A stretch of DNA of 64,000 bases from Ilex aquifolium (lineage: Eukaryota > Streptophyta > Magnoliopsida > Aquifoliales > Aquifoliaceae), in assembly GCA_951799425.1 (NCBI GenBank), contig OX637402.1, positions 34,498,492 to 34,562,491 on the forward strand, given 5' to 3'. The position numbers were made by a program, and so were the translations under genes. This document shows, piece after piece, positions 25,741 through 63,259 of the stretch. Every line of letters starts with the position of its first letter. Positions within the stretch are counted from its first letter, which is position 1. The notes beneath the pieces were generated by a model. The model was not told the DNA's origin. It saw nothing but the letters and a program-made list of their open reading frames with translations, and did not search any database.

Positions 25741-25896
25741 AAGTTTGATTATTTAGATATTTTTAAAAGATTTGATCAAGTTCTATAAATAATGCCGAAA
25801 GCAAAGATATCCAAAACCAAAGAGTTACTTGCATTAAAAAATTCAAGATATTACATTAGAAAGGGTCATTACACCAAAAAGTTACAAAAAACTCTT

Positions 25897-27839: not shown

Positions 27840-28079
27840 TGAGGAAAGTGAACATAGAAAGAAGAAAGGTGGTGTAGAAGAAAGGAAGTCTGAAACAAGG
27901 GAAGTAAAGTGATGGGAAGACGAAGAAGAAACCGTTTATAAAGAGCGAGAATTCTAAAAGGCGGCATTTAAATACTGAGCATGCCGCCAAAACAAAAGGG
28001 GGATGTCACAAAGTACAAAGCAATGATAATGAAAAGGCATAAAAACGGCTGACAGACGAAAAGCGTCTGTCAGACGCTT

Positions 28080-28092
28080 TTCTGGGGGCAAA
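28080..28092 (+). other. Polypurine tract
   Basis: CTGGGGGCAAA directly precedes the 3' LTR start TGAAGG. Confidence 0.7.
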
Positions 28093-33712: not shown

Positions 33713-33786
33713 ATGAACACTCTATGTTCATTCAGAAATGATTACATTTACTGAATTTTCTTTTTTTGGGACTCTAATTTGTCTTA

Positions 33787-35995
33787 GGACAACACTACGG
33801 TACAGCGATTGACTTTTGCGGTACCATATCGAAATTACTGTGGGGGCTAAAAGCTGAATAAAACTCTGCAGAATGATGCAAAAAGGGACACGTGTAAAGG
33901 TAAAGCAAAGGCAACCGGAGTGACCTGTTGGGACTTAAACCGTACAACAATAATGGATGAAGGCTGTAGCATAGCATGAGTGAGTTACGAAGTTTATGGA
34001 ATATTTACAATATTACTTGCAAGATTTACAAGAACAATGGGTATAATAACAAAGATAATGGTATTCTTACGAAGTCAGTGGAACCAACTACAAAGACAAT
34101 GGAGGAAAATATACAACTTCAATGGATCATTTACCACTTCACTGGAGCATTTACAACTTTAATGGATCATTTACCACTGTAGTGGATTCTTTACCAAATT
34201 TAAGGCAATACTTAAAACTTCAATGGATCATTCATAACTGTATTTTTACGATATGTAATACTCATGATCGATCATTAAATATGATCGATCGATCAGATTT
34301 TAACGTAAGATATGAGTAACCCAAGAGGATATACAACTTCAATGGATCATTTACCACTTTTAAGGGAATATTTGCAACTTCAATGGATCATTTACCACTT
34401 TTATAGGAATATTTACAACTTCAATGGATCATTTACCATGTGAATGGATCATTTACCGCTTTTATAGGAAAATTTACAATTTCAATGAATCATTTACCAC
34501 TTTATGGGAATATTTACGACTAATAGGGAGTAGTATTTACTAAAGCAATGATATTTTTCACAATAGCTAATAGTCCATGATCGATCATTGAATATGTTCG
34601 ATAGATCATGGCACTAAGGTGAGTTTATAAGTAATGGATAATCCAATAATATATACAATTTTAATGGATCATTTACCACTTTTATGAGAATATTTACAAC
34701 TAGTGGGGAGTAGCATTTACTAAAGCAATGATTTTTTTTACAATATTTAATAGTCCATGATCGATCATGGAATATGTTTGATCGATCATGGAACTCAGGT
34801 GAGTTCGTAAGTAATACCTAATCCAATAAAATATACAATTTTAATGGATCATTTACCACTTTTATCGGAATAGTTACCACTCGTAGTGAGCAGCATTTAC
34901 TAAAGCAATTGTATTTTTTACAATAGTTTATAGTCCATGATCGATCATTGATTATGTTCGATCGATCATGACACTCAGGTGAGTTCCTAAGTAATGGATA
35001 ATCCAATAATATATACAATTTTAATGGATCATTTACCACTTTTATCGGAATAGTTACCACTCGTGGTGAGCAGCATTTACTAAAACAATGGTATTTTTTA
35101 CAATAGTTTATAGTCCATGATCGATCATTGATTATGTTCGATCGATCATGGCACTCAGGTGAGTTCCTAAGTAATGGATAATCCAATAATATATACAATT
35201 TTAATGGATCATTTACCATTTTTATGGGTAAAAAAATTGGATAGGTTACTGTAGATATAACTGTAGATAATTGGAAATCTACAGTAAATAATCACTGTAG
35301 ATATCCGATCGATTGGTAAAAAAATTAGATAGGTCAGTCAATTGTAATTGTAATCGATCGATCTGAGTGATATATTGATCGATGAAATTGTTCCAGATTT
35401 CTAACGTGAATCAGAAGGAAAACAAATACTGGGGATATTTGATTGATCGTTTTAAAAATATGATAGATCAGTATGTAATCAGAAAACTTGATCGATCATA
35501 TATTTATAATGATCGATCAAATTGTTGAAGATCATAAGTACTGGGGACATATGATCGATCAAATATTTATATTGATCGATCAAATTGTTTCAGACCATAA
35601 CTCCTAAGTACTGGGGACATCTGATCGATCATATATTTATTATGATCGATCAAATAGTTGCAGATGTTAAGTACTGGACATATGATAGGTCAAATATATA
35701 TATTGATCGATCAAATTGTTGAAGATCAGAACTCTGAAGAAATGGGGACATCTGATCGATCACATATATGTATATGATCGATCAATTTGTTGCAAATGTT
35801 AAGTACTGTGACATATGATCGATCAAATATTTATATTGATCGATCAAAATGTTCCAGATCAGAATTCATATTGACTGGGGACATCTGATCGAGCTGACAT
35901 GTATATTGATCGATCATTGAGTTATTTAGGTAGAAGTTGAATGGGCAAGTGGAATTTTGATCGATCGAAAGTAAATATGACCGATTAGTTATTAT
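33787..35995 (+). repeat. Left inverted terminal region of the giant MULE
   Basis: From the end inward: about 190 bp of unique terminal sequence; about 40-bp units with AATGGATCATTTACCACTTT and ATATTTACAACTTC (33990-34540); four 180-bp units (34540-35225); then a GATCGATC-rich zone with repeated AAATTGTT...GTACTGGGGACAT phrases (35300-35970). The same order appears inverted at 59700-56570. Confidence 0.85.
34540..35225. repeat. 180-bp tandem repeat, about four units (left)
   Basis: TAGTCCATGATCGATCAT recurs at 34571, 34751, 34931 and 35111, an exact 180-bp spacing. Units contain AATGGATCATTTACCACTTT and paired GATCGATC sites. Confidence 0.92.
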
Positions 35996-36414
35996 TTATT
36001 TACGTAAATGCCCGCAAAGAGGAACTGATTGAAGCGTTGTAATGGGGGTATTGTTGTAAATAAACATCGCAGTATCCACAAATAAATCCCCAAATCGCAC
36101 GAAATAAGTCCTAATCAACTCGCGCCAACCGAAGCCATTCAAAAATCCATTCCAAATCCTGTACACCAAGAAAAACCCATTCCAAATACCGAAAAACCAA
36201 ATCCAAATCCTACAAAACCCAATCAAAATCTCCGAATTCCATAAACCCAAAATCGCAAACCACTCGAAATACATTTCATGAGATCGGGGATGCCTACACA
36301 CACTACTTCCATTGTGAATCTTCCATTGTTCGTTGTGAATCTTCCATTGTTCGTTTTGAATCTCCCATTGTGAATCTTCCATTGTTCGTTGTGAATCCCT
36401 TTGGAGCTTTGCTG

Positions 36415-37509
36415 ATGTCGGGTGGAGAGAGGAAGAAACGGAAGAAAGTGGCTACGGGGGGCAGTGCTGGCAATGCGAAACTGTTTGTGGATAATGATGC
36501 GAAGAAGAGGTATGATACATTAATTGTTAAACGTCCGCTTATACTTGAGCGTGGTGTTTACCTTGATGAGCTAATAGGAAGTGTGGATTGCCCTGAAATA
36601 CTTCGGGCTCGAAAATGGGATCCTTTGTTTCAAGTGAATGTGGAAAATAAAACATTTGTTGATCTTGTTAGGTATTTTTATGCAAATATTCATGACTACA
36701 AAGAGAATGAGCTGACATTTAAGACAATGGTTAGGAAGAAAGCCATAACTGTTTCGCCTGATCTTATCTCAAAAATAATAAAAATTGATAGACCAGTCAT
36801 TCCTGAGAATTCCATTGTCTTTCCATACTCAAGTAAGGAGCAGGTTCCCGAAATGTCGACGGTTATTCGACATATTTGTATTGGGAGTGTCAATTGGGTG
36901 AATGAGAAAAGCAAAATTGCTCACATTGACCTTACTCCAACGTTTAGGATGATAAACCGAATTGTTGCTTGTAATATTCATCCAAGGGGGCATACTGCTG
37001 AGATTGGATACGATACGGCCCAACTATTACATGCTATTGGTGAACATGGGATTATTATTGATCTACCCCTTTACATATTCAACCATGTTCGTGAATCATC
37101 TACCGTCGAGGATTGCAGGCCATGTCTTCCATTTCCAATATTAATTACCAAGATTTTGAAGCATAATGGGGTTAAATTTCAGCATAATGACAGTTTTATG
37201 TACCCCATGAATGCAATGGGTATGGGTACACTTAATAAAAGTGTGGGAGAAATTTTGGGTAAAGGGAAAAGGGGGAAGCGTGTGAAGCAGCCACATGCGG
37301 TGTCTGAGGTTGTGGGCAGTGAAGCTGGGCCTAGTCAAGGTGGTTCTGATGTTGGTACTACTGAGGTGCAACAAACACTTCAGCAAATGGTTGAAAAGTT
37401 GGAGGCCCGATTTGAAAAGTTCGAGGATGAAATGAAGGGGTCGTTACAACGTCTGGAGTCAAAATTAGATTGTTTTTATAAGGACTTTAAAGAGTATATC
37501 AACAAATGA
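36415..37509 (+). CDS. Putative plant transposon protein with coiled-coil C-terminus
   Basis: A single uninterrupted exon; I prefer Met at 36415 (MSGGERKKRKKVA) over an in-frame Met at 36370, because it begins with a basic, NLS-like patch; this gives 364 residues. The middle part (YDTLIVKRPLILERGVYLDE, then VDLVRYFYANI, then KKAITVSPDLISKIIKI, then IVACNIHPRGHTAEIGYDTA, QLLHAIGEHGIIIDL) resembles the putative plant transposon protein domain (Transposase_32 type). A Lys-rich GKGKRGKRVKQ patch and a C-terminal coiled coil (VEKLEARFEKFEDEMKGSLQ, RLESKLDCF) follow. Function unknown; probably nuclear and possibly oligomeric. It lies just inside the left inverted end. No break is seen, so it may be expressed. 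The repeated CTTCCATTGTTCGTT phrase at 36305-36390 is in its leader. Confidence 0.75.
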   Translation: MSGGERKKRKKVATGGSAGNAKLFVDNDAKKRYDTLIVKRPLILERGVYLDELIGSVDCPEILRARKWDPLFQVNVENKTFVDLVRYFYANIHDYKENELTFKTMVRKKAITVSPDLISKIIKIDRPVIPENSIVFPYSSKEQVPEMSTVIRHICIGSVNWVNEKSKIAHIDLTPTFRMINRIVACNIHPRGHTAEIGYDTAQLLHAIGEHGIIIDLPLYIFNHVRESSTVEDCRPCLPFPILITKILKHNGVKFQHNDSFMYPMNAMGMGTLNKSVGEILGKGKRGKRVKQPHAVSEVVGSEAGPSQGGSDVGTTEVQQTLQQMVEKLEARFEKFEDEMKGSLQRLESKLDCFYKDFKEYINK

Positions 37510-38402
37510 CACGTTGGTTTTGGGGGGTTTTGGTGAATCTTTTGTTTTATAGTAATATTTGGCATTTTGGAAAAGGTTGTTGTAGATGTTGAGTGGATGG
37601 TTGTTAAATATATTGGGTTGTTGTTAGAAATGTTGACATGTTGTAGCTGATTTTTTGGCCTCTTTTGCTGTTCAAGGATTAAAGTCATCTTTTGTGATGA
37701 TCTATATTATGGCAGACTGTGTGGGCAACTTTTATGTCTCGGCAGTTGGTCTTTATGCTTGGCTGCTGGACTGGTTTGCTGTATTGCTTTGTTTCAGTAG
37801 CTGTATGATATTCTTATAGACTGGTGGTCTGCTGTGACATGGGCTGTGAGCAAAGGTGCAGGAGCTTAGTTTGGGTACATATCAAACTAGCTGGGCCCGC
37901 ATGGGTGCTGTACTGGTTTGTTTCTGATCTGGGGATTCTGCATGAGGAGTTGTGTGGAAGTTCAGGAGCTGGAGTGAAGATCAGAAGACACAATTTTGTA
38001 GCTTACAATGGTTTTAATAATCTTGAAGGATTAAAGCCATTTTTGAATTTTGTAGGAACTGTTTGTTCTTTGCTTCTTGTAATTACTTATTCGATCAATA
38101 AAATTTCCACTTTTTGAGGAAAAAAAGAAGTTGAACCTTCCATGCAACTTTAAGAAAGCTGCATTGTGGCGTCAGCTGCAGTAGAGCAATAGGGTGATTA
38201 TCCCAGAATATTTCAGTGGCCATATGTGTACACGTTAAACAGTTCAAAAAGTATTCAGTGCAGTATGATAATGAAATCGTGGAATAGTGTGTAGCAAATA
38301 ACTGAAGGCAATGAGACAATCACATGTAGTCGTGCTCACCTAAAAAATGTTTAAAGAAGTATTAATCTACTGCCCGTGCACAATTGAATCAAAAGCAGGG
38401 AT
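37510..38402. other. Gene-A trailer and repeated 3'-tail sequence
   Basis: No credible gene. The block 38020-38115 (AAGGATTAAAGCCA, then TTGTTCTTTGCTTCTTGTAA, then AATAAAATTTCC) is shared with 51215-51310 and in part with 51620-51690, suggesting a common transcript tail or retroposon 3' end. Confidence 0.45.
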
Positions 38403-38985
38403 CTTTTTTTTTTTAATCAAAAGGGAATTATATTTATTCATAATGCAAAATATTTACAAGAAACAAAGGAAAAGGCACAGACGCCCATCCATAAGCAGTA
38501 TAAGCCAAAACTAACAATGCAAAGCCAAAAATACACAACAGCAAAGTATAAATTTTCAGCAAAACTCCCCATCACAGTCCAAATCCATAAGCACATATCA
38601 ACAATAAAGAGCATTATATCTGTTTCCCTTGTTTCAAACAAATCAATACTTAATCATCCAAAACAAAAAGCTCCCCATTAGCAACTCTTATTACCCCTTA
38701 TCATCGTAGATTTTCTTCCTTCTTTTTTGCAACACAGGGAGACTTTGTTGATCAGATGACAGATCCAATGTAACATCAGAAGGCAATGTCAAACCCATTG
38801 GAAAATCAACCGAATTCCTACTCTTTACTGCATGCCCATGAAGACTATCAGCCACAACATTTGCCTCACGAAAAATATGCACCAATATATAAGCCAGACC
38901 CCTCAAGAAGCCACTGATCTGTCTCAAATAGTTGAAACATGTCCAAGGACAGTCACAAATACCCAGAACAACATTCACCAAAATA
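38403..38985 (-). mobile_element. 5'-truncated LINE-like fragment (RNase H-like tail)
   Basis: On the minus strand an open stretch (38981-38691) contains LVHIFREANVVADSL, the conserved end of the RVT_3/RNase H-like domain of plant L1 elements. The sequence ends in a T-run on the plus strand (38407-38417), equivalent to a 3' poly(A) on the minus strand. Target-site duplications were not found, so limits are approximate. A host RNase H-like gene fragment is an alternative. Confidence 0.45.
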
Positions 38986-39190
38986 AATTAATCACATTAA
39001 ATTTCAAACCTGCAACCAGTCAAACCATATGCCAAAACAAGTTTCACTCCATTGCACAATGCACATATATCCGGCAAAATGCAGTATATCAATTGCTGTT
39101 AAAAAAATTAAAAAATGGAAATCAAAACCTCGTTGGTATGTATAGAATTACCAAAAGTAAGTAAAAGGTGATAATGTATGAAACCTTATA

Positions 39191-41560
39191 TCAGAGGACA
39201 TTGTAATTGTAAGTTGGATTCCAATGGTCGTCTTCTTGAGTTGATGCCATGGGATCTTGGGAGCCACCAGGTTGTGAGAAGGGCATGTCATCATGTGGGT
39301 CGTCCGCATTGCACGTAAGCTGCGGACACTTACGAATAGTATGTCCAATGCCACGACATTTACTACATCGTCGCAGAGCTATTGGTAAGTTCTTCCTTAC
39401 ACGGCCCGGATTCCCTTTAGTTGTCACTGTCTTGAGATCGACGACGCCAAATTTTATGTTCGACACAGTCTCATTATAATCTTGATGTGATGATGACAAC
39501 TGTCTTGCCTCCCGTGTATCATGACGTTGTTTCATGCGGTTGGTTACTGCAGTTATTGTTGTTCGAAGCTCCTGTGTGTCCTCATGCAAATGGGATGCGT
39601 AGTAACACATCCGGCTACACATTGACATTAATCCAGCATATCGACAAGAAATTGAAATGGTTCTTGATGTTTGAGGCACAGAGGTCGGTGGGCAAGCTGA
39701 TTTTGCAGTAACTGTCCATCGCTTTACAATAGTACTAGGAGGGAACTCTGTTATGTGTTCAGTTTTCAAAACTGTTATGATGTGTGAGCAAGGAATTCCA
39801 ACAGATTGTAATTTCTGGCAATTGCAGAGGATGGTGTGATTCTGAAAATCATATATCACATTCCAACTGGATGTTGGTTTTGTGTACTTCGACAGATAAT
39901 AACTGGAATGAGTACTGTGCTGAAGTTTTTGGACCACGAAGAAGAGTCCTTCGGCCGTTATATGATCCCGCACTTTAAAAAATATTGACCTGGTATACAG
40001 TGATGCAGCGTGCTGCTCTAAGCAGCGTAGTGAAGTGGTCAACACTGGTGTACTGTTTTCAGAATAATGGGTGTCATAGGCTTCGGTCTCTCGGATTCTT
40101 GAGACACCCCTATCATATTGTCTAACAAACTCATACAAACGTAGCCTTGTTTTCAAGAAACGATTCAAGTAACCATTCAAGCTTTCTGAGCGTTGCGTGC
40201 TTTTGATGCCGCCAAAGAAATGACCCCTCAAGAATGCTTCAGCCCATTTCCACCGCTTTGTGTACACATCTCTAATCCAGCTGTTATCCTCTAGGCCAAA
40301 TGAATGTACCATTGATTCCCACATAACATCAAATTCCTCAGGTGTACATCGGCAGCACATACAGTTCTTGAACTCGCGAAGGAAATTTTCAGCATGAATA
40401 TTTTGAAGCGCATTTCTCTCCAAATGCCAGCTGCATAGTCTGTGTTTTGCATCAGGAAAAATTATTTCGATTGCGGCGGTCATGGCCTTGTCCCCATCGG
40501 TCACAACTGATATAGGCTTTTTATTTTCTATTGCATCAAGAAATGTCTCCAACACCCAGACATATGTGTCCACTGTCTCATATGAAAGTAATGCACATCC
40601 AAAAATGCAAGTAGCATTATGGTTGTTTACACCTGCAAGTATGACAAATGACTTTTTGTACGCATTGGTGCGGTATGTTGTATCGAATACCAATACATCA
40701 CCGAAACATCCATAGTCAACACGAGAAGTTGAATCCGCCCAAAAGAGGCAATTCAATGAATTATCATCTTCAACACTGTACCTGAAAAAAAATAATGGGT
40801 CTAACTCCTCTTTCGCGCTCAAGTATGCTAGTGCACCTTCAGCATCCCCATCAATCATTTCCTCTCTTCTTTAGCTTGCAACAGCGTTGTACAAATCCTT
40901 TCGCGTAAAGCCAACATTTTGGTAGCCGCCAGCTTGATTCAACATAAAATCTCGTATTTGGCTAGTGCGTATGCCAACACTGCGAAGTGCTGTTGCTTGC
41001 TCTATGTCTGGGCTTTGAACACGGCGGTGGGACCGAAGGAACGACACTCCACTGGGGGGAACCAACGGATGATTATGATCATTCACGAACTCCTTTATTA
41101 CCCAAGTTTGTGACTTTTTGTCATACTTAACGCGGAATACCGCCAAACAACCAACTCGAGTTATTCCCCTTGGTTCCCGTGCCCTTTCATCTCTGTCTAA
41201 GTATTTTGCAGCTCGAAACCCTTGTCGGGAACATACCCACTTCCTTGACACCGGTACGTGGTTTTTGTCATATTTTAAGTCATCTTTCCTGACGTTGAAA
41301 TCTACAAACTTTGCGTATGTGTTATAAAAATGACCTGCTTCATCTTCTGAGTTAAACTTCATTTCACTGACTTCCGCTGCCGATAATTCTGTTAAAGCTT
41401 TTTCCATTTCAAGGGGTTGTAACGTACCCGAAGTTGATTTACCGTGACGATGTCCATATTCACCATTCCATGTGTCAACCTCATAAATTTCACTTTCATC
41501 AGGTGTTTCATTCAAGTCTATAACGACATTCTTTCCCTTTTCTAAGCCAGTACGAGCCAT
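39191..41560 (-). pseudogene. FAR1-type MULE transposase, one nonsense codon
   Basis: 789 codons in one frame from ATG 41560 to TGA 39191-39193, interrupted once by TAA at about 40873-40871; the frame continues unchanged. Domains in order: acidic N-terminus; FAR1/WRKY-GCM1-like DNA-binding domain (about residues 65-150, SEDEAGHFYNTYAKF, KWVCSRQGF, VGCLAVFRV, HNHPL); MULE catalytic core with DDE residues in LVFDTTYRTNAY, VTDGDKAMTAA and STQRSESLNGYL; SWIM zinc finger CNCQKLQSVGIPCSH; C-terminal CCHC knuckle CSKCRGIGHTIRKC. A leader intron (41782-41575) precedes the ATG by 14 bases. FAR1/FHY3 transcription factors derive from this family. The enzyme would act on the terminal inverted repeats. 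One C-to-T change can explain the stop, so inactivation is recent. Confidence 0.92.
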
Positions 41561-41782
41561 TTTATTCGTGAAACCTAAAATACATAATTATTATTTAGGT
41601 TTCACTATTATAATTATTTACAAAAAGTGAATAATTTTGTGAAAGTATATGGAAAAAAATTTGTTGTTGGACATATATTTATTAAAATAATTCAATTACT
41701 GTAAGGATCACATAATCAAACATTAATCTAATGTATTCAAAATAAATGACATTCAAAATAATTGGTATCATGTATGACATAC

Positions 41783-43590: not shown

Positions 43591-44069
43591 TCTCTCACTC
43601 TCACTCTCTCTCTCCCTCTCTCGCTTCCACGACAACCAGTCGCAAACACACACACAGACCTCACCAAAACACACCCACAGCTCACCACCAACCAGCTCTT
43701 CCCTAATTTCCTCCTCGATAAGGTTCGTTTCTTGCTTCCTTTCGATGGAACATTTGATTGACTTACATTGTTCTAAAAAACCTTATCGAGCTAAAAATTT
43801 ATGCACATGAGCGAATTGGAATTTGGATATATATATATATATATATGTTGCGTTCAAAACAGGACCTGAACATCCAGTACTAGTTCAGACTAATTCATGT
43901 GCTTATTATGATTTGATATTATCTGCTGACTGTTAAAGAGGGTATTTATAATTTTTTGTCTAGTTTGTAGTATCTCTGATTGTCTGATTTCCGTATGGTT
44001 TGCATCTTGAAATGATATACTTGAACATGCAGCTTATCGATATAAGGTTTCTGTGTACCACATTTGTAG

Positions 44070-44147
44070 CTATTGAAGAAGACTTTTGCTCGCCAAATAT
44101 CAAAAACTGCCTCCCCTGTAGAACAATTTCGTCAGGCATTGGTTAAG
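44070..44147 (+). pseudogene. Possible captured exon of an unidentified gene
   Basis: A 78-bp segment bounded by TTTGTAG and GTCAGT, open in exactly one frame, encodes LLKKTFARQISKTASPVEQF followed by RQALVK. Upstream, 43590-43720 looks like a CT-rich 5' leader ending in a donor-like CGATAAG/GTTCG. Together this resembles a host gene 5' portion carried inside the MULE. I do not recognise the protein. Confidence 0.3.
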
Positions 44148-46394: not shown

Positions 46395-49300
46395 ATGGTT
46401 GATACCGCCACGTCCAGGAAGAGACAAAGAAGACGACGGGCGGATAGTTTAGGCCATACAGATGTAGAAGTATGTTATACATCCTTACATTTAGTTATGG
46501 AGAAAATTATGCATATGCATCATTAGTTTATTCAACTTGACATGTGCCGTTCCGTATTAATTGTTCAATTACTTAATGTGTACAACATTATGTGGGGACC
46601 AGATGTTCACCTAAAAGACTCAAAAAATTCGCATCAAATCTAAATGCCGCACAAAAACAAGCCATCATCGAAATTGGCTTGGGAGGATTGCTGAACATAG
46701 CATGCACATATATCAGGCATGATTTGTGTGCATGGTTGGCTGGACGATTTGATCCCCAGCGTTGTGCTTTCAATTTGTATGGCAAATGGGCGAAGTTCAG
46801 CCCCCAAGATGTAACCTACATACTAGGTTTGCAATTTTCTGGGACAAATGTCGTCACCACGGGTACAAAGGACAGCATTAATGACCTTTGTACGTCTATA
46901 TTTAACGGACAACCGGAGGTATCTGTGAAACATTTGTCGGAGCGCCTTAGTTCAATCACAGATGCCTCTAACGATTTTATAAGGCTGTCTGTTTTATATA
47001 TTATTGCTTGTATGCTTCGTCCAACAATGAGAATAACAATAAGTGTTGCTGCATTACACTCTGTTGTTGATGTGCCTTCATTACGACATACAAATTGGTG
47101 CAAGTTCGTATTTGATGGAGTCCTCGAAGGCATTACAAAATTTCAAGCATCCGGTCGGGGATCATTGGGTGGCTGTCTTGTTGTTCTGATGGTAAAGCAC
47201 TTATACAGGACGTGTTTGTTAATGTGTATGTTGTATACCAATGGTAAATAGTGTGTTATGGTCTTCAGTTTCTGTTGTATGCAAGTTTTTTATCTTGAAC
47301 GAGTTACACCGAGAGGGCAAACCATCATTCCTATGGTTTTTCGTGAGGTACCCCGAATTGTAGAGTGGGGTGACAGCGATGTCAGTAAAAGAATGAATGA
47401 TATCTTCAATTGTGGCGGGTTCAATCTGAAGGAGGTATACATTTTCTAATTACATGAATTTTTCCAAATGCACTGTTGTATGGTATAGTCTTACATAGTA
47501 TTTGACAAGAATGGGTGATTACATTCATTTTATGTATGTAGTTGGATGTTTTTGTGGAGGAGGAGATCATTGATGATGCACTTGGTACTGCATCCCAGCA
47601 AGCAGTGTCTGACGTATGTACATATACCATGTATAATCTATATATTTCCCGAATAAACATAATATTTGTCTGCAAATATTTGACTGTACTGTGAATTATT
47701 ACGTATGTTGTTTTTAGGATTTGCGGATAAGAGTTGGAAGACTTGTGGTTCTTGCAGAGCGCATGGAAAAAAAGTTTGATACTTTTGCATCAAACTGCAC
47801 AACTACATTGTCTGTGATGGATAAACGACTGGGTGATATAGGACAGCTGATGTCAAAATTTCTTGATAAATCGGGGAATGCGAAGGATGTCAGACATGAA
47901 ATGGGGGGAAATAAAGAAGAAGATGAAATTGATCTGACGAAGTTGTGTATTAAATCCGTTGTACTGGTGCAACCTTAAATGTGTTGTTCATTGTTTAACG
48001 ACATCCATTACTGCTTACTTGTTGACGTGAACTGACAATTGCGAACTTTATATTTTAGGTTGATTTGGATGATCCACATGCTGTAGAGGAACACCAACCA
48101 TATGAAGTATGATATATTGATTTGTTATATTAAAAATTGAACATGTATTTTCAGGTGAGTGTCATTTTGAATGAATTATACGCTAAATTGCGCTGTAGAA
48201 GGCAGATGTGGTGTTCCCAAGAATAACTCATATCGATGATGATGTGGAACGCGCAATCTACCTTTACATATTTGACAAACACTTGCCATCTGAGTATGTG
48301 CCGTTTTAATTTTATTTTGGCCCAGCCCATTATGCTTAACGTGTGTGCTAGTTTTATCGTTTTCCAATGCACCTGTGCATAAAATTAATGCAGTTTTGTT
48401 TACGTATAGTGAGTGTATGGTATCAGTTGGTGACCATGCTGCAGGCACGAGGGAGGTGTTACAGACCCTTGCCTCGAACCAATGGCTGAGTGGAATTGTT
48501 TGTGAAATTTAATTTTTTGACTGTTATTGTTGATACGTTATGAGAAAGAAACTAAAATATCGTGTAAACAATGTTATTAGGTAATTGATATGTGTGCCTG
48601 CATCGCTCCGCAAACGGGACGATGGTACTGTAAGTATATGTTTTCATCATTTATGCACAATTTTTAGTTTCATTATGCAATTAAAAGTTCGGGTCATGTG
48701 AAAAACAAATTAATGTGTGTTTGCTCGTGACTGTATGCAGCAACAAGCCATGGGAATGCAGGAACAACCAATGTCACGCCGCAGCACCCGCAGTCAAGGT
48801 GCAAGGGTAACTAAAAAAAAAAAGAATTTTAGTCGCCTTCCACTCCCTGATTTTACAGCAACTACAAAGGTAGTCTGTATTGGTTTAATGCGTTTTCTAA
48901 TTCAGTTTGCACGTTAGTCTATATTATGAAGTATTGTTTGTTTGTATGTAGATTTATATCCCAATGAACGATGAAAAATCACATTGGTATCTAATTTTGG
49001 TGGATATAGAGGAGAAACAAACATTCATACTCGACCCTCTGCCAAATCCAAAAAGAAACAATATTCGACTCACAAATGCGAATAGAGTTGTAAGATACTT
49101 ATTGTTTTCATTTAGCATATGATACTTGTCAACAACTTTGTGTATTTGGCCAATTACATTCAAAACTGGTTTTGTAGATTTAGGTGTTGGACGACATTCT
49201 TGCAACTAGGGCGGCCGATTTTAAACACAAATTGCGCACGTTCCAGGTTGTTAAACCAGCATGGATGCCCAAACAAGACAATGGTTTTGATTGCGGAATT

Positions 49301-49564
49301 TTCGTTGTGAAGATGATGCAATCATCACATTTGGGGCAAGGTTTTACAGTAAAGGTGAATAACAATAAATATTCCGTGCTGACCTTGCCGCATATCTTTA
49401 ACAGTAAAACAAAAAAAAAAAAAGTTTTATGTGTAATGTTTATAGTTTGTTAAATGCAGGGTAGGAGTAAAGACATTCGAACGGAGGTGGCTATTAACTT
49501 GGTCACCGCTGAGGAGAACAATTTCAGAGATAAAATCATACATATGGCACTACACACACCTTGA
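46395..49564 (+). CDS. Ulp1-like (C48) protease with plant-mobile-type N-terminal region
   Basis: About 13 exons, among them 46395-46469, about 46595-47191, 47542-47613, 48952-49089, 49184-49354 and 49460-49564. Exon 1 is short and very basic (RKRQRRRRA, NLS-like). The second exon carries a conserved region of the kind found upstream of Ulp1 domains in plant transposon proteins (LCAWLAGRFDPQRCAFNLYG, then DVTYILGLQF, then GCLVVLM). Middle exons are acidic and linker-like. The C-terminal peptidase keeps the C48 residues: His in KSHWYLILVD (48982), Asp in ILDPLP, Gln in PKQDNG and Cys in FDCGIFV (49292). Ulp1/ULP enzymes remove SUMO; the substrate here is unknown. The exon 1/exon 2 acceptor is not clear, so the 5' structure may be damaged. 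Convergent with the gene at 51917-55926. Confidence 0.8.
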
Positions 49565-51916
49565 CGTGTGTATTGGTTCATTTGAGAGTCGATGAAGACA
49601 CATGTATCTGATGGTGGTGGCCAAATTGATTACATTCATATGTTTTCTTTCATATGTACATTTACAGTTTTAGACAGATGTATATACGGTTATGCACATT
49701 TTAATCAATATTGAATTGAATTTCTAACGTTGGATCTGTATTTAGGCAGATGCATACAAACAAATCAAGTATACTATATTTTGACTTGCAGAAATCACAT
49801 TATTTAAGAGTTTGACAACGTGCTCATATGAACATCTATCTATGATTGCAACGTAGCAACTGCCTGCCTCAGATTTTCAGTGGCGATGTGATAGGTGTCA
49901 ACAGACCGTTTATGAATGTGATTATAGGTATATTCTCCTTTTCCAGTTACAGGATCACACTGGCTTGACATGGGTAAACTTTAAATGCAATATATTTGGC
50001 CGTTGACATGACATATTGTCATTGTAGTAATGTTCATCCAGATTATGGAAGTGGCAATGTAGATGGCAGATATGGTGGTGTGCCAAAAGGTTTTACATTC
50101 ATGGTGTCTAATCGAAGTGAAATTAAATTTTTTTAACAGTGCTGTGATTCTCCCTTCTTTGTGTACAGGGAGGCTAATGATGGTAGCTGCCTTATTTTGG
50201 CTTATTGATCCCCATTAAGTCTGGTGGCCTTTGTGTTTTTCCATCTGCAGGTATTCTGCCATTGGATTGATACATGCTTTTGCAGCAAGATACACCTCAG
50301 GCCTACTGTAAACATTAGGAGGTTGTGTTAATTGGCCGGCATGTGTTTTCTGTGGATTCAACATGTATCATGGTCTGTTGTACAGAAGGTGGGTGCTGGT
50401 ATGCTGATGATCTGGACTGCAGCAGCTGAACATGAATTTTTTTAACGTCTTTGATTGTAACAGTTTGCTTGTTTTTGTGAAGCTGTAACTGTTTTCTGTT
50501 GTAATATGTTGGGGATTTTTTTTATTCTTGTAATTTGGGAGGTTAATTAATAAAATATGTCTATAATTTTGACTTATTTATAGACGGTATATTATGACAA
50601 TGGTAAGGTAGATCAATAGGATAAATTCATGTGTCAGACATGGTTGATGATATCCTGCAAATCAATGCATTTCTCTTTAGCTAGTAACAAATTTATGGCA
50701 TACTGGTGGTGTGAATGTTCGCATGATGCATTTGTGCCGGTTATTGCATGTGCCACTGGTTGTGCAGCGGATCATAGGTGTCAAGCTCTCTGTTTAGGGA
50801 CTTAACAGCTGCCTATCCGGCTTTATCTTCGACCACTGAAGCAGAGTCTCTTCGTTGATTTTTTAACGAAAGATCAACAGTCTGTTAAAGAGGCAGGGCT
50901 TCATATTGATAAGGAGAATGCCTTATCTGCTGACTTTTCATGTTTCTTTATCAGACTTGCTCGTTGCTCAATAATTATCAGCTGAGCTCTCAGCTGACGT
51001 CTCAGCTCAGTTGAATTATGTGTCTCCCACCTTCAGAAAGCTGATGAAGTGGATTACGCCTGCTTCCTACAATGGGTGTTTTCAGCTGCCTATGATTTTC
51101 ACTGGAGCACATTTATTACATATAGGCCATTAATTTCTGATTGTTTTGTCTGAATTTTTTGGCAGATTGTGGTTTAATTTTGGATACTCATACTGTAATA
51201 ATGATTTGGTTAATCCATTGAAGGATTAAAGCCAACTCCCACACTTTAGAACATTTTTGTTCTTTGCTTCTTGTAAAGTCTTCAATTTTTTGGAATAAAT
51301 TTCCTCTTTTACACAAAATTTTTTTTTATATATTTACGTCAAAAAAAATTTAACAACACGTGTTTCTCCGCATCCAATAAGACGCGTATGAAGTATTCAC
51401 ACGGAATGACTTGACTCACATCAAACCCACTGCAAACTTTTTCATTACCGACAGATATACTAGCTTTTGACTGCACAGATCTGAAAAAGTAACATTGATT
51501 AAATATTCTATTCATTATAGCTATATTCACGGTTATTACCCATATGTAGTAGCTTTTGACTTCACACATGAAAAAAGTAAAAGTGATTCAAGAATGATTT
51601 TTTGACATATTATATTTTCTTGAAGGATTAAAGCCATCATCTTGGCTAAGATATTTGTTGTTAACAAGTGTTGCTTCTTGGTATTTTGGTTCTACTCAAT
51701 AACATGTATCTTTTCCTTAAAACTGTCCACATTGTATTCCAGTATATAAATACCGACTACATAAGCACATTTCATTCACCAATAAATATTGTATTCCAAT
51801 AAATATATCATGCCTATCAAAGCACATTCCAGATCTCAGGCAACTTTGTATTCCAATATATACATCCCGTCTAACAAAGCACATTGTATTCCACTATATA
51901 CATACCGAACCCATTC
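49565..51916. other. Region between the two convergent Ulp1 genes
   Basis: No credible ORF. It contains transcript-tail-like text ending near 51310 that is shared with 38020-38115 (GAAGGATTAAAGCCA, TTGTTCTTTGCTTCTTGTAA), and a further partial copy at 51620-51690. At 51740-51905 a short phrase, TTGTATTCCA(A/C)TATATAC, recurs four times. Confidence 0.45.
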
Positions 51917-54900
51917 TCACATTCCTGCTAATATACTTCTACATTTCCCCGTTTCTATCCCTCGTTCTCGCGCCTTATGTATGAGTTTGTTGCGAACTTT
52001 GTTGTCAGCGTGAGTAGCTAATGAAAACGTAAAGTTCATCCGCATTTCATTCGAATCTTCCTGCGATAACATGATACCACCTTGTTAACAAAATGCGATT
52101 ACATGAGGGATATAAACAAATTATAGAATTACAAGCGCGACATGTCGTAGGTTGCCTATGTTATATATTTCACCTTAATGCTAAAGCCTGGACAAAGCAC
52201 TGGAGCAAGGATCATCTTGACAACAAACATTCCACAATCATATGCATTCCCCTGACGTGGGGCCCAAGACGGTGCGGACAAAGTGAATGTTCCCAAATAA
52301 GGTTGGTAGTTATGCTGTGTAGCTTCAAGGACATCATCTAATTCAAAGACCACATTATGCACAACATTCAGCCGAGTTGAAATATCGTCACCAGGAAGCG
52401 GGTCCAACAAAAGAGCTTTCTGTTCAGTTACGTCAATGACGCATAGATACCAATGGGAGTTGTTCTCGTTGATCGGGATGTATATCTAAATTTGTTTACA
52501 CATCAATACATTGTTAATAAGCGTGGATCAATGTAACTAATGTTAGACCATAATTAATCAAAAGGATTAATTATATGGTTAATACAGACCTTGTCACAGT
52601 ATGTAAAATCTTTTATGTACTTCCCATTCGCAGCACACATGGATTGAAGCAAAGCTTTTTTACTTGCACTGTCAGCCGTTCCAGCACGAGCCAGTGCCTG
52701 TTGCTAAATACAACAAACAAATTTATAATCAACATATTGTATGTATTATATTTTTTTTTAAAAATAAAATAATTAGGTCCTACAAATAAACACAAGTTTA
52801 TTACCGAGAACCACGTGGGTAGATACCACCTCTCTAACCCAGTTTTTGGATTTGTCTTATCTTCATTAGATAACAAATTGTGCGCCAAATCCACAACCTG
52901 TGACAGTCATTGAAAAAATACAAAAGTAAATTGCCAGTGGTTTAAGTTATGGTACCGACATATGGATAAAACTTGAAAAAAATAAAAATTTGTTCCTAAT
53001 TTTCCAACCGAATCAAGTAACCACTGCTTTGGTAATAGTGTCATGAGACAGTGGCGTCCAGCATGGTCATGTTCAAACCTAATTAAATCCTCTCTGTTTG
53101 AAAAAAAAATGTAATATTACACAAAAATCCGGTAAGCATACAAATACTTTCACTCACATAGTAATTAATTTTTTAAATTGTATCAATTGGTACATTAAAA
53201 ATAAAGATACATCATGTCAAGATTCTTGTCAAATATGTAATTCAGAATCAATTGCTTATCTTCAGGATACAGTATGTCTACATTTGCATATTCCTCAACG
53301 TGCTGTGGAATACCCAAAGTAGAATCTGAAATCTGTTTCCCCAATCTGTGTCATTAAACTACCATTCAAGTTTGTCACATAATCAATAATGTAAAAAACC
53401 TTACCTTATGAATTTCAGCAACTGATGCACTTGTACAAGACAATTTCGATGCCTTGTTGTCATAACAATTCATGTTGTAACCGCCCTGTGGATAGATAAT
53501 TTGAACATAAAGATATACAAAACCTTGGATAATAATAATAACTGATGTCAGAACCTTGGGCATTATTTCTTTATGAATGGAATTGTCCATTTCTTGAATG
53601 TGATCCGGGGGATTATTCACCTCCCCCTTGCCCTCTTTGTTATCATCCTTCTTCACCCAACGATTCTGTGGTTAAAGGGAGTAAAATATAAGTGAGGATA
53701 ACGTATAATGTACTTAATTAATACAGTAAGTTTGATGTATGTTATACCTTTGGTTGTTCATATGGTGAAATCACATATTTGCTTGGCCTCCGTTTAGAAT
53801 CTCTTCTTAGCTGCATTGGTGGGAACGATGTTTGGGTGCATGAGTAAGAAGCCTCTTGCATGTCACCAACGTCATTATGTTTGTAACCGTCATTGTCAGT
53901 ATTCACTGGCCGCCGTCATGCCTCCTGAAATGGTTTTGGTGGTGGGGTGTGGATAGCGGCAATGGGTGTCCAAATCCGGTAGTCCACATCCACTTCATTC
54001 CGGGAATTGGCATTTACACCTTCATTCAAGTCAATTTTATTTTTTTTCTCATCAACTTCTCCGACAGCAGCAGCATTCTCTATGTCTTGGTAATTTGATG
54101 GTTTAGGAAACGATCCACCCATGAACATTTGCATCATGTTAACCATTGACCCCACCATGCCAGTAAGGTTAACAATCGCATTCTCCATCTTAACCATTTT
54201 GGCCTCCCATTCCTACACATTTACACAATTAATCACGTGTCCTAAACTTATTATAAATCAATGTGATTTCAGTATCATGGTATATACGTACCGGTGGTTT
54301 TTCATCTGATGTCAAAATAGGTTGCTTTACTTCATGGGTGGATCGTTTACTAAGGCTTACTGTAGCGACTGCTTGGAGTTTATTCATGGTGTCGTCCAAA
54401 ACTTTGCAAGTAACTTCTTGACATGCTAGTCGTTTGGACTTCTTCAACATGCTTACATGTTTCTTAATTTCCTTATCCCCCCATGCAGCAATTCGAGGGA
54501 TGCTCCTACATGGCGGTTGTTTAACAAACACCGCTTTGGGTGTGACCCGCTCTAGATATACTATCTACATTAAAAAATTAAACGAGGTCATTCAGTAAAA
54601 GTTTTGTGAAACAAGCACAACATAAAAATACTAAACAAAAAAAATGATACCTTACCATAAGAACAAGTAAACATCCACTAACATTTTTATGATGACGTGT
54701 TTGATATTTTCGTACCCCTTCAACCATACCATCAAATACAAATTTCGCCCAATTTCTCGTCCCTATAGAAGGAAAGTCTACAACACTGTGAAGATACCCG
54801 CTGCTAATTGAAGTACGCATGGTTGGGTATAGAAGATGTCCAATAAGAAATAGCACAAAATATATCCTAAACTCATCCGAAACCACTTTAAGTACACAAA

Positions 54901-55926
54901 GTCTCTCACTCACATGTCTCAACGGGATATCCTTAACGCCATTGAATAATGAATTCCAAATGCCATTAATTCTTTCACTGGGCCCAGTAGTCTCCACGTC
55001 CAAGCCTTCATTTCTCAAACCCATGACACATTCAACATCCATGGCTGATAACTGAATAGCTTCACCGTACACATTTAATGTCAATGACACAGTGTCAAAC
55101 CGTTCAATCAACCATGCACATAAACCCCGCTTCAGTTCCCCACATTTGAGGCTCAACATCCCTCCAAAACCAAGTTCTTTTATTGCAGCTTTCTGCTCAT
55201 CACATAAAAGTTGTATCATTTTTACAATTTTCCCAGGCGAACACCTTGTACCAAGCGTCCCCTTTGATTATTTGTCAAAACATAGACAGAAATGTCAGTT
55301 GGAGAGGTGCAGTAAATGTAAACGATGAATTGTGAAAATTAGCATCGAAATTATATAATTACCCGTACTGTTATTTTCCTAGAATTATCTTTCACACGAT
55401 CATATTCACTCTTCGCATGTATAGACATTTCTTTGTATTTCTCTTTCTCACAATCTGCCATCTTCCTCCATTGGTCAGCCAGTTGTTTAGTCACCTTATG
55501 AGTACAAGTTCAATTGGAAGACATTATTAATTTCACTATTCCAAACAATACTCGCTCGTTGTAACAAAAATTATACCTCGCGTGTCACTTTTTGATCAGC
55601 ATTTCCTTTGATATTCTGCATTTGTTCCTTACTGTAATGGAAGTACAACAAATGCGTACATTATCAAATATACATTAACCACAAAATAATTTTACACTAC
55701 AATACACAAATTTTTCATACTAGAAAAATAGCCATGCAGTAGGTGGACGTTGTGCTTTCAAGTCTTCGACCTTTGTCTCCTGTGACCTCTTCTTCCCCCT
55801 GGAATATGTACCATAATATGAAGTCTGAAATGTGATGATTCTGAAATATTTTCAACAATATAATCATATCTTACATTACAAAAATCGCCAAATTGGACTT
55901 CCCAAGTCTATTGCCTTGCTACTACC
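51917..55926 (-). CDS. HMG-box / plant-mobile-type / Ulp1-like protease fusion gene
   Basis: Minus strand, at least 14 exons; the first exon(s) upstream of 55926 are not identified. Exons 55926-55877 (approx.), 55798-55721, 55631-55577 and 55494-55363 join in consistent phase to encode an HMG box (AQRPPTAWLFFYKEQMQNIK, then ADQWRKMADCEKEKYKEM, then AKSEYDRV), next the region 55261-54656 (GTRCSP, LCAWLIERFDTVSLTLNVYG, GCLLVLM), then acidic and basic linkers, and finally a C48 peptidase ending at TGA 51919-51917. Catalytic residues are visible: His in NSHWYLCVID, Asp in LLDPLP, Gln in APRQGN, Cys in YDCGMFVV. One in-frame TGA lies at 53918-53916 (EA*RR); it may be a real break or an intron edge I placed wrongly. 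The protein would combine DNA bending and SUMO cleavage, presumably in the nucleus. Confidence 0.78.
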
Positions 55927-56570
55927 CTGCAAATAACACATGGTATATAGGTCATATAAATAAGTATATGCTACACATACACTTCTCTAAACCAGTCAGA
56001 CATCCTTCTCAAACACACTCACTCACCAACACATTCATTCACAACTATAACATCATTACCAGTACGTAAATGTTTCCAATTATGACACACACAGAGATGT
56101 CAAACACTGAAAACATACCATTTATAAAAAATAATATTTCATAGATTCACTACTAAGTTGATGATACCTTATTATGTATCTCCTCCTGGTCGTTAATCAC
56201 AACAAGCCGAAACTAAGACAAATGAGGAGGAGTGTACACACTTCTACGTAGACCAATACAAACCTTTTTTGAAATACTGAAAGGGGATACTTATGACCTC
56301 AAACCCATATTGCAAGGAATAAAAAGCTTGTGATGCAGAGGGAGGCACAGAATTCGGAACAAAGAAGATGGAGTCGGATGAATAGGGGAGTGATGATTTT
56401 TTGGAAGATAGAAAGAGGAGACTAGTGAGCTCAATGTTTAGAGGATGGAGGGAGCTGGGTAGTGGTTTTTGGCGGGATTATGGAGGAAATAGGAGGGAAC
56501 TGCTGTAGCTAGTTGTCACAACCTGATTGGTTGGTATGGAAATAAACACTAAACGACGTCGTTCAGCCTG
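55927..56570. other. 5' region of the HMG-Ulp1 gene
   Basis: Probably holds the leader and first exon, reading leftward. A segment ending with GACCAGGAGGAGATACATAA then TAAG/GTATC (56163 side) looks like an exon-donor border, but I cannot assign a start codon. Host-like GC content compared with the flanking repeats. Confidence 0.35.
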
Positions 56571-57001
56571 GGAAAAAAATTAACTTCCGATTGATCAAAC
56601 TAATATACGATCGATCGAATAGTTTCAGCCTACCACATTTAACCCGCTAATATGAGGGACTGAAACACCATTCTTCTTCTACAACACCTCTACATTGATC
56701 TATCGCAAAATAAATGATCGATCATGAAGTGGCAAAAGGTTAATGATAGATCGAATAACTAAGTGATCGATCACTAACTTTCAGAATGTGACCAATTTAG
56801 ATCTATCTAACTGATCGATCACTACAATTTGATCGATCGTTAACTTGTTCATATGTACACGATCGATCATTATTCAGTGATCGAATAATCCATTACAATA
56901 TTTGATCGATCTAATATATTTATGATCGATCTTATATTAAATTAAATTATATTTAATATTTTAATTAAATAAAATTACATGAATTAATTAAAAAATTAAA
57001 T

Positions 57002-57284
57002 TACATGAAATAGATCGATCAAACATAAATTAAGATCGATCATACTGTCACAGTTGTTTCAATCAGAGTTTTAAAAGTACTGTGGCGTTCTGATCGATCG
57101 TTTTCAAAAAATGATAGATCAAATAAGTATTCTGTGATGGATCAAATTCGAGTTTTGTACATATTTGATCTATCATTTTTTTATACGATCGATCAGACCG
57201 CCACAGTACTTTTAATCTCTGATTGAAACAACTGTGACATTCTGATCGATCAGAATTTATGTTTGATCGATCTAATTCATGTAA
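57002..57284. repeat. Large near-perfect inverted repeat (hairpin)
   Basis: Arms of about 120 bp: 57002-57125 and 57160-57284, with a loop of roughly 35 bp. Left-arm landmarks TAGATCGATCAAACATAAAT, CACAGTTGTTTCAATCAGAG and AAAAGTACTGTGGCG have inverted partners in the right arm. No equivalent was seen in the left terminal region. Confidence 0.88.
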
Positions 57285-57309
57285 CTCGATTTTCCTCCAT
57301 CACAGAATA

Positions 57310-58500
57310 CATATTAATCGATCGAACAAATAATATGATCGATCATGAACCATTAAATATTGTAAAAAATACCATTGATTTGGTAAATGCTTCCCCCCAT
57401 TAGTTGTAAATATTCCCATAAAAGTGATAAATGATCCATTCAAGTTGTATATATTATTGGATATCCATTACTTACGAACACACCTGAGTGCCATGATCGA
57501 TCGAACATATAATATGATCGATCATGGACCATTAAATATTGTAAAAAATACCATTGATTTGGTAAATGCTTCCCTCCATTAGTTGTAAATATTCCCATAA
57601 AAGTGGTAAATGATTCATTCAAGTTGTATATATTATTGGATATCCATTACTTACGAACACACCTGAGTGCCATGATCGATCGAACATATAATATGATCGA
57701 TCATGGACCATTAAATATTGTAAAAAAATACCATTGCTTTAGTAAATGCTTCCCCCCATTAGTTGTAAATATTCCCATAAAAGTGGTAAATGATCCATTC
57801 AAGTTGTATATATTATTGGATTAGCCATTACTTACGAACTCAACTAACTTCCATGATCGATCGAACATATGCAATGATCGATCATGGACCATTAAATATT
57901 GTAAAAAAATACCATTGCTTTAGTAAATGCTTCCCCCCATTAGTTGTAAATATTCCCATAAAAGTGGTAAATCATCCATTCAAGTTGTATATATTATTGG
58001 ATATCCATTACTTACGAACACACCTGAGTGCCATGATCGATCGAACATATAATATGATCGATCATGGACCATTAAATATTATAAAAAATACCATTGATTT
58101 GGTAAATGCTTCTCCCCATTAGTTGTAAATATTCCCATAAAAGTGATAAATGAGTCATTCAAGTTGTATATATTATTGGATTAGCCATTACTTACGAACT
58201 CACCTGACTTCAATGATCGATCGAACATATGCAATGATCGATCATGGACCATTAAATATTGTAAAAAAATACCATTGCTTTAGTAAATGCTTCCCCCCAT
58301 TAGTTGTAAATATTCCCATAAAAGTGGTAAATGATTCATTCAAGTTGTATATATTATTGGATTATCCATTACTTACGAACACACCTGAGTGCCATGATCG
58401 ATCGAACATATAATATGATCGATCATAGACCATTAAATATTGTAAAAAATATCATTGCTTTCGTAAATGCTACTCCTACTAGTCGTAAATATTCTCATAA
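57310..58500. repeat. 180-bp tandem repeat, six units (right)
   Basis: The landmark ATGATCGATCGAACATA recurs near 57493, 57672, 57853, 58033, 58213 and 58394, about 180 bp apart. Each unit has two GATCGATC sites flanking about 12 bp, then AAATATTGTAAAAAATACCATTG-like text. Related in inverted orientation to 34540-35225. Open frames here are artefacts of the repeat. Confidence 0.93.
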
Positions 58501-59709
58501 AAGTGATAAATGATCCATTGAAGTTGAAAATTTTCCTATAAAAGTGGTAAATGATCCATTGAAGTGGTAAATTATCCGTTGAAGTTGTAAATATTACTAT
58601 AAAAGTAGTAAATGATCAATTGAAGTTGTAAATATTCCCATAAAAGTGGTATTGATCCATTAAATTTGTAAATATTCCATTAAAAGTGGTCAATAATCCA
58701 TGAAAGTTGTAAATATTTCTTTAAAAGTGGTAAAATCATCCATTGAAGTTGTATATCTTCTTGGGTTACTCATATATTACGTTAAAATATGATCGATCGA
58801 TCATATTTAATGATCGATCATGGAGTATTAAATATCGTAAAAAATTCATTACTGTTGTAAACGATCCATTGAAGTTGGAAATTTTCCTATAAAAGTGGTA
58901 AATGATCCATTGAAGTGGTGCATTATCCATTGAAGTTGTAAATATTACTATAAAAGTAGTAAATGATTAATTGAAGTTGGAAATTTTCCTATAAAAGTGG
59001 TAAATGATCCATTGAAGTGGTACATTATCCATTGAAGTTGTAAATATTACTATAAAAGTAGTAAATGATCAATTGAAGTTGTAAATATTCCCATAGAAGT
59101 GGTATTGATCCATTAAATTTGTAAATATTCCATTATAAGTGGTCAATAATCCATGAAAGTTGTAAATATTTCTTTAAAAGTGGTAAAATCATCCATTGAA
59201 GTTGTATATCTTCTTGGGTTACTCATATATTACGTTAAAATATGATCGATCGATCATATTTAATGATCGATCATGGAGTATTAAATATCGTAAAAAATCT
59301 ATTACTGTCGTAAACGATCCATTGAAGTTGTAAATTTTTCTATAAAAGTGGTAAATAATCCATTGAAGTGGTAATTGATCCATTGAAGTTATAAATATTC
59401 CCATAAAAGTGGTAAATAATCCATGAAAGTTGTAAATATTTCCATTGAAGTTGTAAATATACCCAAAAATTTGGTATACAATTCATTCAACTTGTAAATA
59501 TTCCTTTCATTACGTTACACAATTTCCTAGTCCTCATATGTACTATCTGACATGTCTAGCAGCCGGTATCCAACCGGTAACCGGTAAGTCTTTGGAAAAA
59601 TAAAATCAACGGCTCAGTTTTCTTGTTAAACAGATCTACGGTGCACATTGAATTTCGGTACCATACCGAAAATTCATTTGGCTGTACCGTAGTCGGCTCC
59701 TTTGTCTAA

Positions 59710-63246: not shown

Positions 63247-63259
63247 CAATATATATATA

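Follow-up and report, generated by a model that had tools for sequence, protein, structure and literature searches.

Giant FAR1/Jittery-type Mutator-like elements of Ilex aquifolium with foldback-like ends, two Ulp1-type protease genes and a candidate anti-silencing module

In the current analysis we have studied a stretch of 64,000 nucleotides of Ilex aquifolium (assembly GCA_951799425.1, contig OX637402.1, positions 34,498,492 to 34,562,491 of the forward strand), referred to here as the window, which encloses an element of 26 kb at 33787-59700. The element is almost certainly one mobile unit. It is regarded as a damaged member of a family of giant Mutator-like elements (MULEs) of the FAR1/Jittery type, mostly 26-32 kb long, with foldback-like ends and with a proposed anti-silencing module similar to those of VANC and Kaonashi, which would act on arrays of the palindrome GATCGATC; this reading as a whole is given an even chance of being right.

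The earlier note on this DNA, made from its letters, had reported two matching ends flanked by short duplications, mirrored repeat arrays and four genes, and these observations are confirmed. The extent of the element and its ends are as follows.

33787-59700, whole element, 26-kb MULE of the FAR1/Jittery type, one damaged copy of the family
33778..33786, no strand, left target-site duplication TTTGTCTTA, agreeing with the right one at 8/9 positions
33787..33836, plus strand, left terminal inverted repeat, opening with GGACAACACTACGGTACAGC
59651..59700, minus strand, right terminal inverted repeat, closing with ...GCTGTACCGTAGTCGGCTCC
59701..59709, no strand, right target-site duplication TTTGTCTAA

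On the left the element opens at 33787 with GGACAACACTACGGTACAGC, and on the right it closes at 59700 with GGAGCCGACTACGGTACAGCC in reverse complement. For the outermost 30 and 60 bases the match between the two ends is better than that of all 2000 random segments of the window, a control in which arm segments were allowed, and for the outermost 120 bases it is equalled or bettered by 4 of 2000. The agreement of the flanks at 8/9 positions is reached by 53 of 200,000 random pairs of 9-mers from the window. Terminal inverted repeats adjoining a 9-bp target-site duplication, as found in the family, are features of MULEs. The boundaries of the element are exact, for all 39 other matches to the left end start no further out than 3 bases beyond 33787, and in most copies (25/30) the 9-bp duplications directly adjoin these edges. 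Six other copies jointly cover 99% of the window copy, which counts against a nested insert as the origin of its size. A nested long terminal repeat (LTR) element had been considered as such an origin and was rejected, as no LTR pair was found inside the element.

The genome searched is the window's own assembly (800 Mb, 103 contigs), in which at least 40 matches for the left end and at least 41 for the right end have been identified. Of 71 candidates for the left end, 145 for the right end and 179 for the joined flanks, 40 each were scored, and two ends were paired if they lie on one contig in correct orientation and 15-60 kb apart. By this rule a right-end partner exists for 32 of the 40 scored left ends, among them that of the window, with a chance expectation of about 0.05 in all, and the other eight have no partner among the scored right ends. 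The earlier note had held that ends never occurring in this pairing would speak against one unit; they are found paired in most cases.

Both ends were examined for 30 of the 31 other pairs, the pair at C7:18656708, which has three right-end matches, being omitted. The target duplications at the exact edges agree at 9/9 positions in 22 copies, at 8/9 in three, at 7/9 in one and at fewer in four, and shuffled partners reach 7/9 or more in a mean of 0.9 and a maximum of 5 of 30. The four exceptions are C18b (4/9), C1a (5/9), C15a (1/9) and C15b (1/9). A shift by one base brings the duplication of C15b to 8/9, and in C1a a 9/9 duplication is readable by eye if the right tip is assumed to have lost a few bases. 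Chance pairing of the two ends is ruled out by the 32/40 pairing together with the duplications, and the search for ends with 9-bp duplications that the earlier note had proposed has thus borne out its expectation. The 31 copies, the window's included, range from 21.6 to 46.1 kb with a median of 29.4 kb, and 22 of them measure 26-32 kb.

Empty sites were sought by comparing joined flanks with the genome for the 22 copies whose duplications agree at 9/9 positions, and the resulting count is a lower bound. At least seven of them (C11a, C10a, C11b, C1d, C1b, C18a and C9a) have a paralogous empty site that is continuous across the junction and contains the target 9-mer only once. These sites have 79-86 identical columns of 88-90, and the target 9-mer is kept at 9/9 positions in five and at 8/9 in two; at the C9a site two additional bases lie beside it. 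C20 is an eighth candidate, for which the match crosses the junction in part. The joined flanks of the window copy match only the window itself within the assembly, so that the empty sites anticipated by the earlier note exist for other members of the family and were not found for this one.

The empty target site of C11a has at least five matches on contig C11 (27150898-27277773), within about 130 kb upstream of the C11a insertion, which points to a repeated target sequence.

The four genes of the element have all been located.

36115..37509, plus strand, open frame with PF20167 (Transposase_32, putative plant transposon protein), 464 amino acids stop to stop
39191..41587, minus strand, FAR1/MULE transposase gene (FAR1 domain, MULE DDE domain, SWIM), with a private in-frame stop at 40871-40873
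46395..49564, plus strand, gene A with a PMD/DUF1985-like domain and an Ulp1 (C48) domain, about 13 exons, start tentative
51917..56308, minus strand, gene B with an HMG box, a PMD/DUF1985-like domain and an Ulp1 (C48) domain, 14 exons, start tentative

Copies were read through in seven cases, namely C7a, C9a, C2, C4a, C1c, C3a and the long C5a, the last of which was excluded from the comparisons of selection, motif divergence, damage and Ulp1 residues. The order PF20167 (plus), FAR1 (minus), A (plus), B (minus) recurs in 7/7 of them, with gene A not found in C2 and partial in C3a. The same four-gene order, for which the earlier note had suggested looking, is therefore a property of the family, and pairing, duplications, empty sites and gene order together support the unity that the note had inferred.

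The PF20167 domain scores 92.9 bits against a Pfam cut-off of 45. The transposase has the DDE features of MULE/MuDR transposases (PF10551, 89.4 bits, cut-off 27.6; PF00872, 22.9 bits, cut-off 21) and an N-terminal FAR1 domain (PF03101, 75.2 bits, cut-off 28.1), and its relatives among the best 120 of 449 hits include FAR1-RELATED SEQUENCE 5-like proteins of Rhododendron, Vitis and Camellia. By predicted domain content and nearest relatives the element is assigned to the FAR1/Jittery branch. The nearest relative among the hits listed, P0001, is 62% identical and continuous across the stop of the window copy, the two pieces of which align to its residues 1-212 and 214-789.

Two of the same best 120 hits, P0028 and P0094 from Rhododendron simsii and R. 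molle, are predicted FAR1-type transposases that run into a PF20167-like domain, below the Pfam cut-off in both. They are probably two adjacent MULE genes fused by gene prediction, and suggest that the pairing of FAR1 and PF20167 genes is older than the present family.

The exons of gene B were modelled by hand without transcript support, and all its introns are GT...AG. Its HMG box (PF09011, 41.2 bits, cut-off 22.4) and its C48 protease domain (PF02902, 67.2 bits, cut-off 20.7) are well above the Pfam thresholds. Genes A and B are paralogous, with 44% identity over 202 residues of the shared domain, and a peptide search at the locus of gene A found no counterpart of the HMG peptide of gene B. 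The copies were compared at the residues that align to the catalytic His, Asp, Gln and Cys of yeast Ulp1. In gene B the first three are kept in 7/7 copies and Cys in 6/7, and in gene A the corresponding figures are 5/5 and 4/5. A C48 domain with these four residues, a feature of the Kaonashi type, is thus encoded inside the element. No relatives of the gene B protein were found among 6169 and 1200 candidates, a result that the word-based search may limit. An AlphaFold model of the PMD-like exons had a mean predicted local distance difference test (pLDDT) score of 36.5 and was discarded, and Rfam and tRNA scans gave no match. An apparent phase break at exon 6 of gene A was dismissed, as a frame-consistent acceptor was found.

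Individual stops or breaks, in one or other of the genes, occur in several copies. The window copy has the in-frame stop in FAR1 and a private one in exon 7 of gene B, both of which are sense codons in 6/6 other copies compared. Its gene A has no splice acceptor before the PMD exon, which 3/5 copies possess, and is short by 17-19 bases near exons 11-12 that 4/4 copies keep. From these private stops and lesions, the window copy is judged to be a damaged member of a family whose predicted genes stayed working until recently.

Selection was tested in two sets, each of three disjoint copy pairs, using three exons of gene A, five of gene B and positions 36403-37506 for the PF20167 gene. Matches below 75% identity and codons with stops were left out, as were, in the pooled analysis, copy pairs with fewer than 100 codons. 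The ratios of non-synonymous to synonymous differences (pN/pS) in the two sets are 0.40 and 0.39 for FAR1, 0.31 and 0.35 for gene A and 0.43 and 0.46 for gene B, with Fisher p values between 8.5e-23 and 4e-6. For PF20167 the ratios are 0.65 and 0.71 (p 0.018 and 0.058). With all pairs pooled they are 0.38, 0.39, 0.43 and 0.65 in the same order. These ratios indicate purifying selection on FAR1, A and B and a weaker constraint on PF20167. The Ulp1 exon of gene B has values of 0.44 and 0.41 (p 0.036 and 0.031).

The extra length of the 46-kb copy C5a is due to copy-specific stretches of 3.3 kb, 11.7 kb and 1.7 kb without cover from other copies. This copy (loci L088-L092) also has a direct repeat of 2.1 kb, 99.5% identical, which begins inside gene A, thus duplicating part of it, and has about 10 kb of copy-specific sequence between its two units.

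The genes are bracketed by two arms made up of repeat arrays.

34112..34521, plus strand, outer array of about 20.5-bp units (ATTTACMACTT...)
34475..35228, plus strand, 180-bp tandem repeat, 4.2 copies, with paired GATCGATC
35340..35966, plus strand, inner GATCGATC array of about 61-71 bp units
56501..57316, minus strand, inner GATCGATC array, non-tandem, the motifs lying in dissimilar contexts
57317..58526, minus strand, 180-bp tandem repeat, 6.7 copies, mirroring the left one
58481..59504, minus strand, outer array of about 20.5-bp units with a 453-bp higher-order repeat, mirroring the left one

From the outside to the inside both ends have the same layers, namely the 20.5-bp array, the 180-bp tandem repeat and the inner array rich in GATCGATC, as the earlier note had described. 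The longest listed pair of the inverted arms (34733-35000 and 58002-58269, 268 bases) is 87% identical. Such long composite inverted ends of tandem repeats are foldback-like. An inverted match between the two ends is present in 6/8 copies and absent from C4a (L078-L081) and C3a (L085-L087), in which the left outer TTTACMACTT array is missing and the GATCGATC array and perfect target duplications are kept.

The palindrome GATCGATC, which contains a CpG, occurs 57 times in the window, always in the arms and never in the other 58.6 kb. For the whole window 0.45 occurrences are expected, and shuffled sequences never held more than 3. Within the window the motif therefore resembles VANC targets in being short, concentrated in non-coding DNA of the element itself and rare elsewhere. 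The seven other copies have 56-74 occurrences each, nearly all at the ends (fixed cut-offs place one in the middle of C9a and six in that of C4a), and the motif is found at both ends in 8/8 copies. Its commonest spacing is 21 bp (15 of 56 successive spacings), equal to two helical turns.

The motif is also more stable than its surroundings. Across ten 180-bp units, 2/20 columns vary in the motif versus 58/154 elsewhere (p 0.013). An initial comparison gave 68 differences in 2484 motif bases versus 11.2% for the rest, lower in 12/12 arm comparisons, and was biased because the sites had been chosen in the window. In the corrected test, made between the other copies, the window-defined motif bases differ at 310/5844 (5.3%) versus 9573/62180 (15.4%) for the rest of the arms, a divergence about three times lower; both tests use best local alignments of the repeats, which are possibly out of register. 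The figures are 8.1% versus 17.8% in the right 180-bp array, and 24/1588 (1.5%) versus 1062/9529 (11.1%) in the non-tandem inner right part. The CpG content of the window arms is 0.97/1.16 of expectation and 0.57/0.66 with the motif masked, with 0.61-0.62 elsewhere in the window, and the differences at CpG bases number 35/727 within the motif versus 115/821 outside it. By these counts CpG is retained in GATCGATC and depleted outside. The pattern makes it quite probable that GATCGATC is a functional target of a protein.

Maize Jittery, the namesake of this type, is far smaller than the present element. Jittery shares the transposase type, as the name is used in the grapevine paper, and is described with 181-bp terminal repeats and a mudrA-like frame only (PMC4486113). 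The Jittery-like MULEs of grapevine have in common with the present family a Jittery-type transposase, large size and, in some families, Ulp1-like coding sequence (PMC2528002). Jitvine-1 measures 11.9 kb and Jitvine-2 14.4 kb; the largest grapevine MULE listed there has 17.7 kb, and its CACTA elements reach 21-25 kb (PMC2528002). Table 4 of that paper shows the Jitvine families with neither terminal inverted repeats nor target duplications; both are present here, in an element about twice the size with two Ulp1-type genes, an HMG box and a PF20167 gene (PMC2528002). The unusual size claimed by the earlier note therefore holds against the grapevine MULEs, while Ulp1-carrying MULEs and tandem-repeat (foldback) ends were each already known. 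In the literature surveyed, which consisted mostly of titles and abstracts with thin coverage of subscription papers and leaves absence from print unproven, no Ulp1-carrying MULE with an HMG box and no MULE family of this length was found.

VANC proteins, which contain DUF1985, bind a 9-base motif in tandem repeats of the MULEs that encode them and bring about a loss of methylation (PMC5735166), and their anti-silencing acts on their own VANDAL elements in Arabidopsis (PMC5735166, PMC10398659). Some VANC genes carry an Ulp1 domain (PMC13317346). The present family shares with VANC systems short motifs in its own non-coding tandem repeats; an action on the motif is known for VANC and is proposed here by analogy. 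With Kaonashi (KI-MULE/KIU) it shares a MULE-borne gene with a C48 protease domain (PMC13317346, PMC6117577). Kaonashi and VANDAL elements are described as MULEs with degenerate or no terminal inverted repeats (TIRs), and Kaonashi as a non-TIR MULE with a MuDR/VANDAL-type transposase, whereas the present element has clear terminal repeats and a FAR1-type transposase. It further differs from both in DUF1985/PMD similarity below the cut-off, a palindrome bearing CpG and two paralogous genes. The foldback MULEs FARE of Arabidopsis and Tm1 of root-knot nematodes likewise have long composite inverted ends and a MULE transposase, and Tm1 has ends of tandem repeats and 9-bp target duplications as here; they differ in host or transposase type, and no Ulp1 pair or conserved palindrome arrays are mentioned for them in the portions available (PMC3169594, PMC4486113). 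Kaonashi-like protease genes are thus carried here by an element that is no non-TIR KI-MULE and that has foldback-like ends.

In the proposed mechanism, the FAR1-type transposase would recognise the terminal repeats and move the whole unit, leaving the 9-bp duplications. A or B, or both, would most likely be anti-silencing proteins of the VANC/Kaonashi kind that bind the GATCGATC arrays in both ends. Bound to the arrays, they could keep the ends unmethylated or clear of silencing marks and thereby allow the family to go on moving. The PF20167 gene is the fourth shared part, for which no task is proposed. By analogy with VANC, that the protein reading GATCGATC is A or B and that its effect is anti-silencing is a tentative proposal, with slightly less than an even chance.

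A number of observations weigh against this proposal. The PMD and DUF1985 similarities lie below the Pfam cut-offs in gene B (23.8 of 34.9 bits and 16.6-19.4 of 35.1 bits) and in gene A (15.7 and 20.6 bits), so that the kinship of A and B with VANC stays a candidate only. The Ulp1 exons of gene A, with pN/pS of 1.04 and 1.53, show no constraint, and the tested HMG exon (44 codons, 0.97 and 0.96) likewise shows none. The VANC21 motif is without CpG, unlike GATCGATC. In a comparison with 56 further 8-mers that are abundant in the arms, one lies below the motif (4.9%) and several are near it, the median being 14.2%; as these controls can be as stable as the motif, homogenisation of the arrays may account for part of its conservation. 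The most variable positions within GATCGATC are the central C (7.8%), the central G (10.5%) and the last C (8.7%). The perfect duplications of C4a and C3a without the left outer array show that this array is dispensable at the left end. Lastly, GATCGATC may serve the transposase instead.

This last alternative accepts the same giant MULE, takes the GATCGATC and 20-bp arrays as subterminal sites of the transposase and lets the Ulp1-type proteins act elsewhere, for example on SUMO-modified host silencing factors. En/Spm and Ac are known to have subterminal binding sites for their own transposases. A palindromic motif present in both ends and often paired at 21 bp is what would be expected for a transposase dimer, FAR1 is clearly constrained, and the kept Ulp1 residues of gene B with an exon pN/pS of 0.41-0.44 suggest that the protease may matter as an enzyme. 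However, the motif spans 2.2 and 3.2 kb, far beyond the subterminal regions known from other plant transposons, and the 9-bp duplications and sharp edges are located at the short terminal repeat. This explanation is considered possible, though on the unlikely side.

An extended form of the anti-silencing proposal would have two channels of self-protection, in which A and B each read one array, the 20.5-bp TTTACMACTT array or the GATCGATC array paired at 21 bp, and in which the HMG box and Ulp1 domain of B strip SUMO-dependent silencing off the ends. It is doubtful; if true, it would explain the spread of a DNA transposon of 26-32 kb in dozens of copies.

It is more doubtful still that the arms are passive satellites that grow by unequal exchange and in which GATCGATC hitch-hikes, read by no protein. 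The 180-bp and 453-bp higher-order repeats, the strong homogenisation and the one control 8-mer of 56 that is more stable than the motif agree with such an origin. It does not fit the inner right part, which is non-tandem, with motifs in dissimilar contexts, and in which the motif differs at 1.5% versus 11.1%, nor the retention of CpG in the motif with its loss outside, nor the presence of the motif, but not of the outer array, at both ends in 8/8 copies. A pair of unrelated MULE ends, or several elements brought together by chance, might account for the 8/9 flanks and missing empty site of the window copy and for the 4/30 other pairs without a duplication at the exact edges. For the family this reading is refuted by the pairing of the ends, the target duplications, the empty sites and the common gene order, and it has practically no probability left.

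According to a review of giant transposons, DNA transposition falls markedly above a cargo of 6 kb, yet cargoes as large as 100-200 kb have been mobilised (PMC6431247). The size of the present family, its duplications and empty sites and the selection on at least three of its four genes raise the question of how such a large DNA transposon stays mobile. The palindrome arrays and the two Ulp1-type proteins are a testable candidate for evasion of silencing outside the VANDAL group of Arabidopsis, and the dozens of copies in the genome make the proposed self-defence open to test.

Further features were noted in the window outside the element. A hAT-type transposase frame of 604 amino acids stop to stop, with zf-BED and hAT RNase-H domains, lies upstream of the MULE at 29572-31386. 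A Ty3/gypsy-like element at 18702-28659 has LTR-like repeats of 567 bp that are 98.4% identical (18702-19268 and 28093-28659) and frames for gag, reverse transcriptase/RNase H and the integrase zinc-binding domain, together with two minus-strand frames (26370-27935) without a clear Pfam match. Another LTR-like pair, 91% identical (7502-8087 and 11588-12201), delimits the segment 7502-12201 and encloses a gag-like frame and GC-rich tandem repeats (9620-10290). A direct repeat of 750 bp, 96% identical and with internal repeats of about 190 bp, is present at 3921-4667 and 63248-63998, 59 kb apart.

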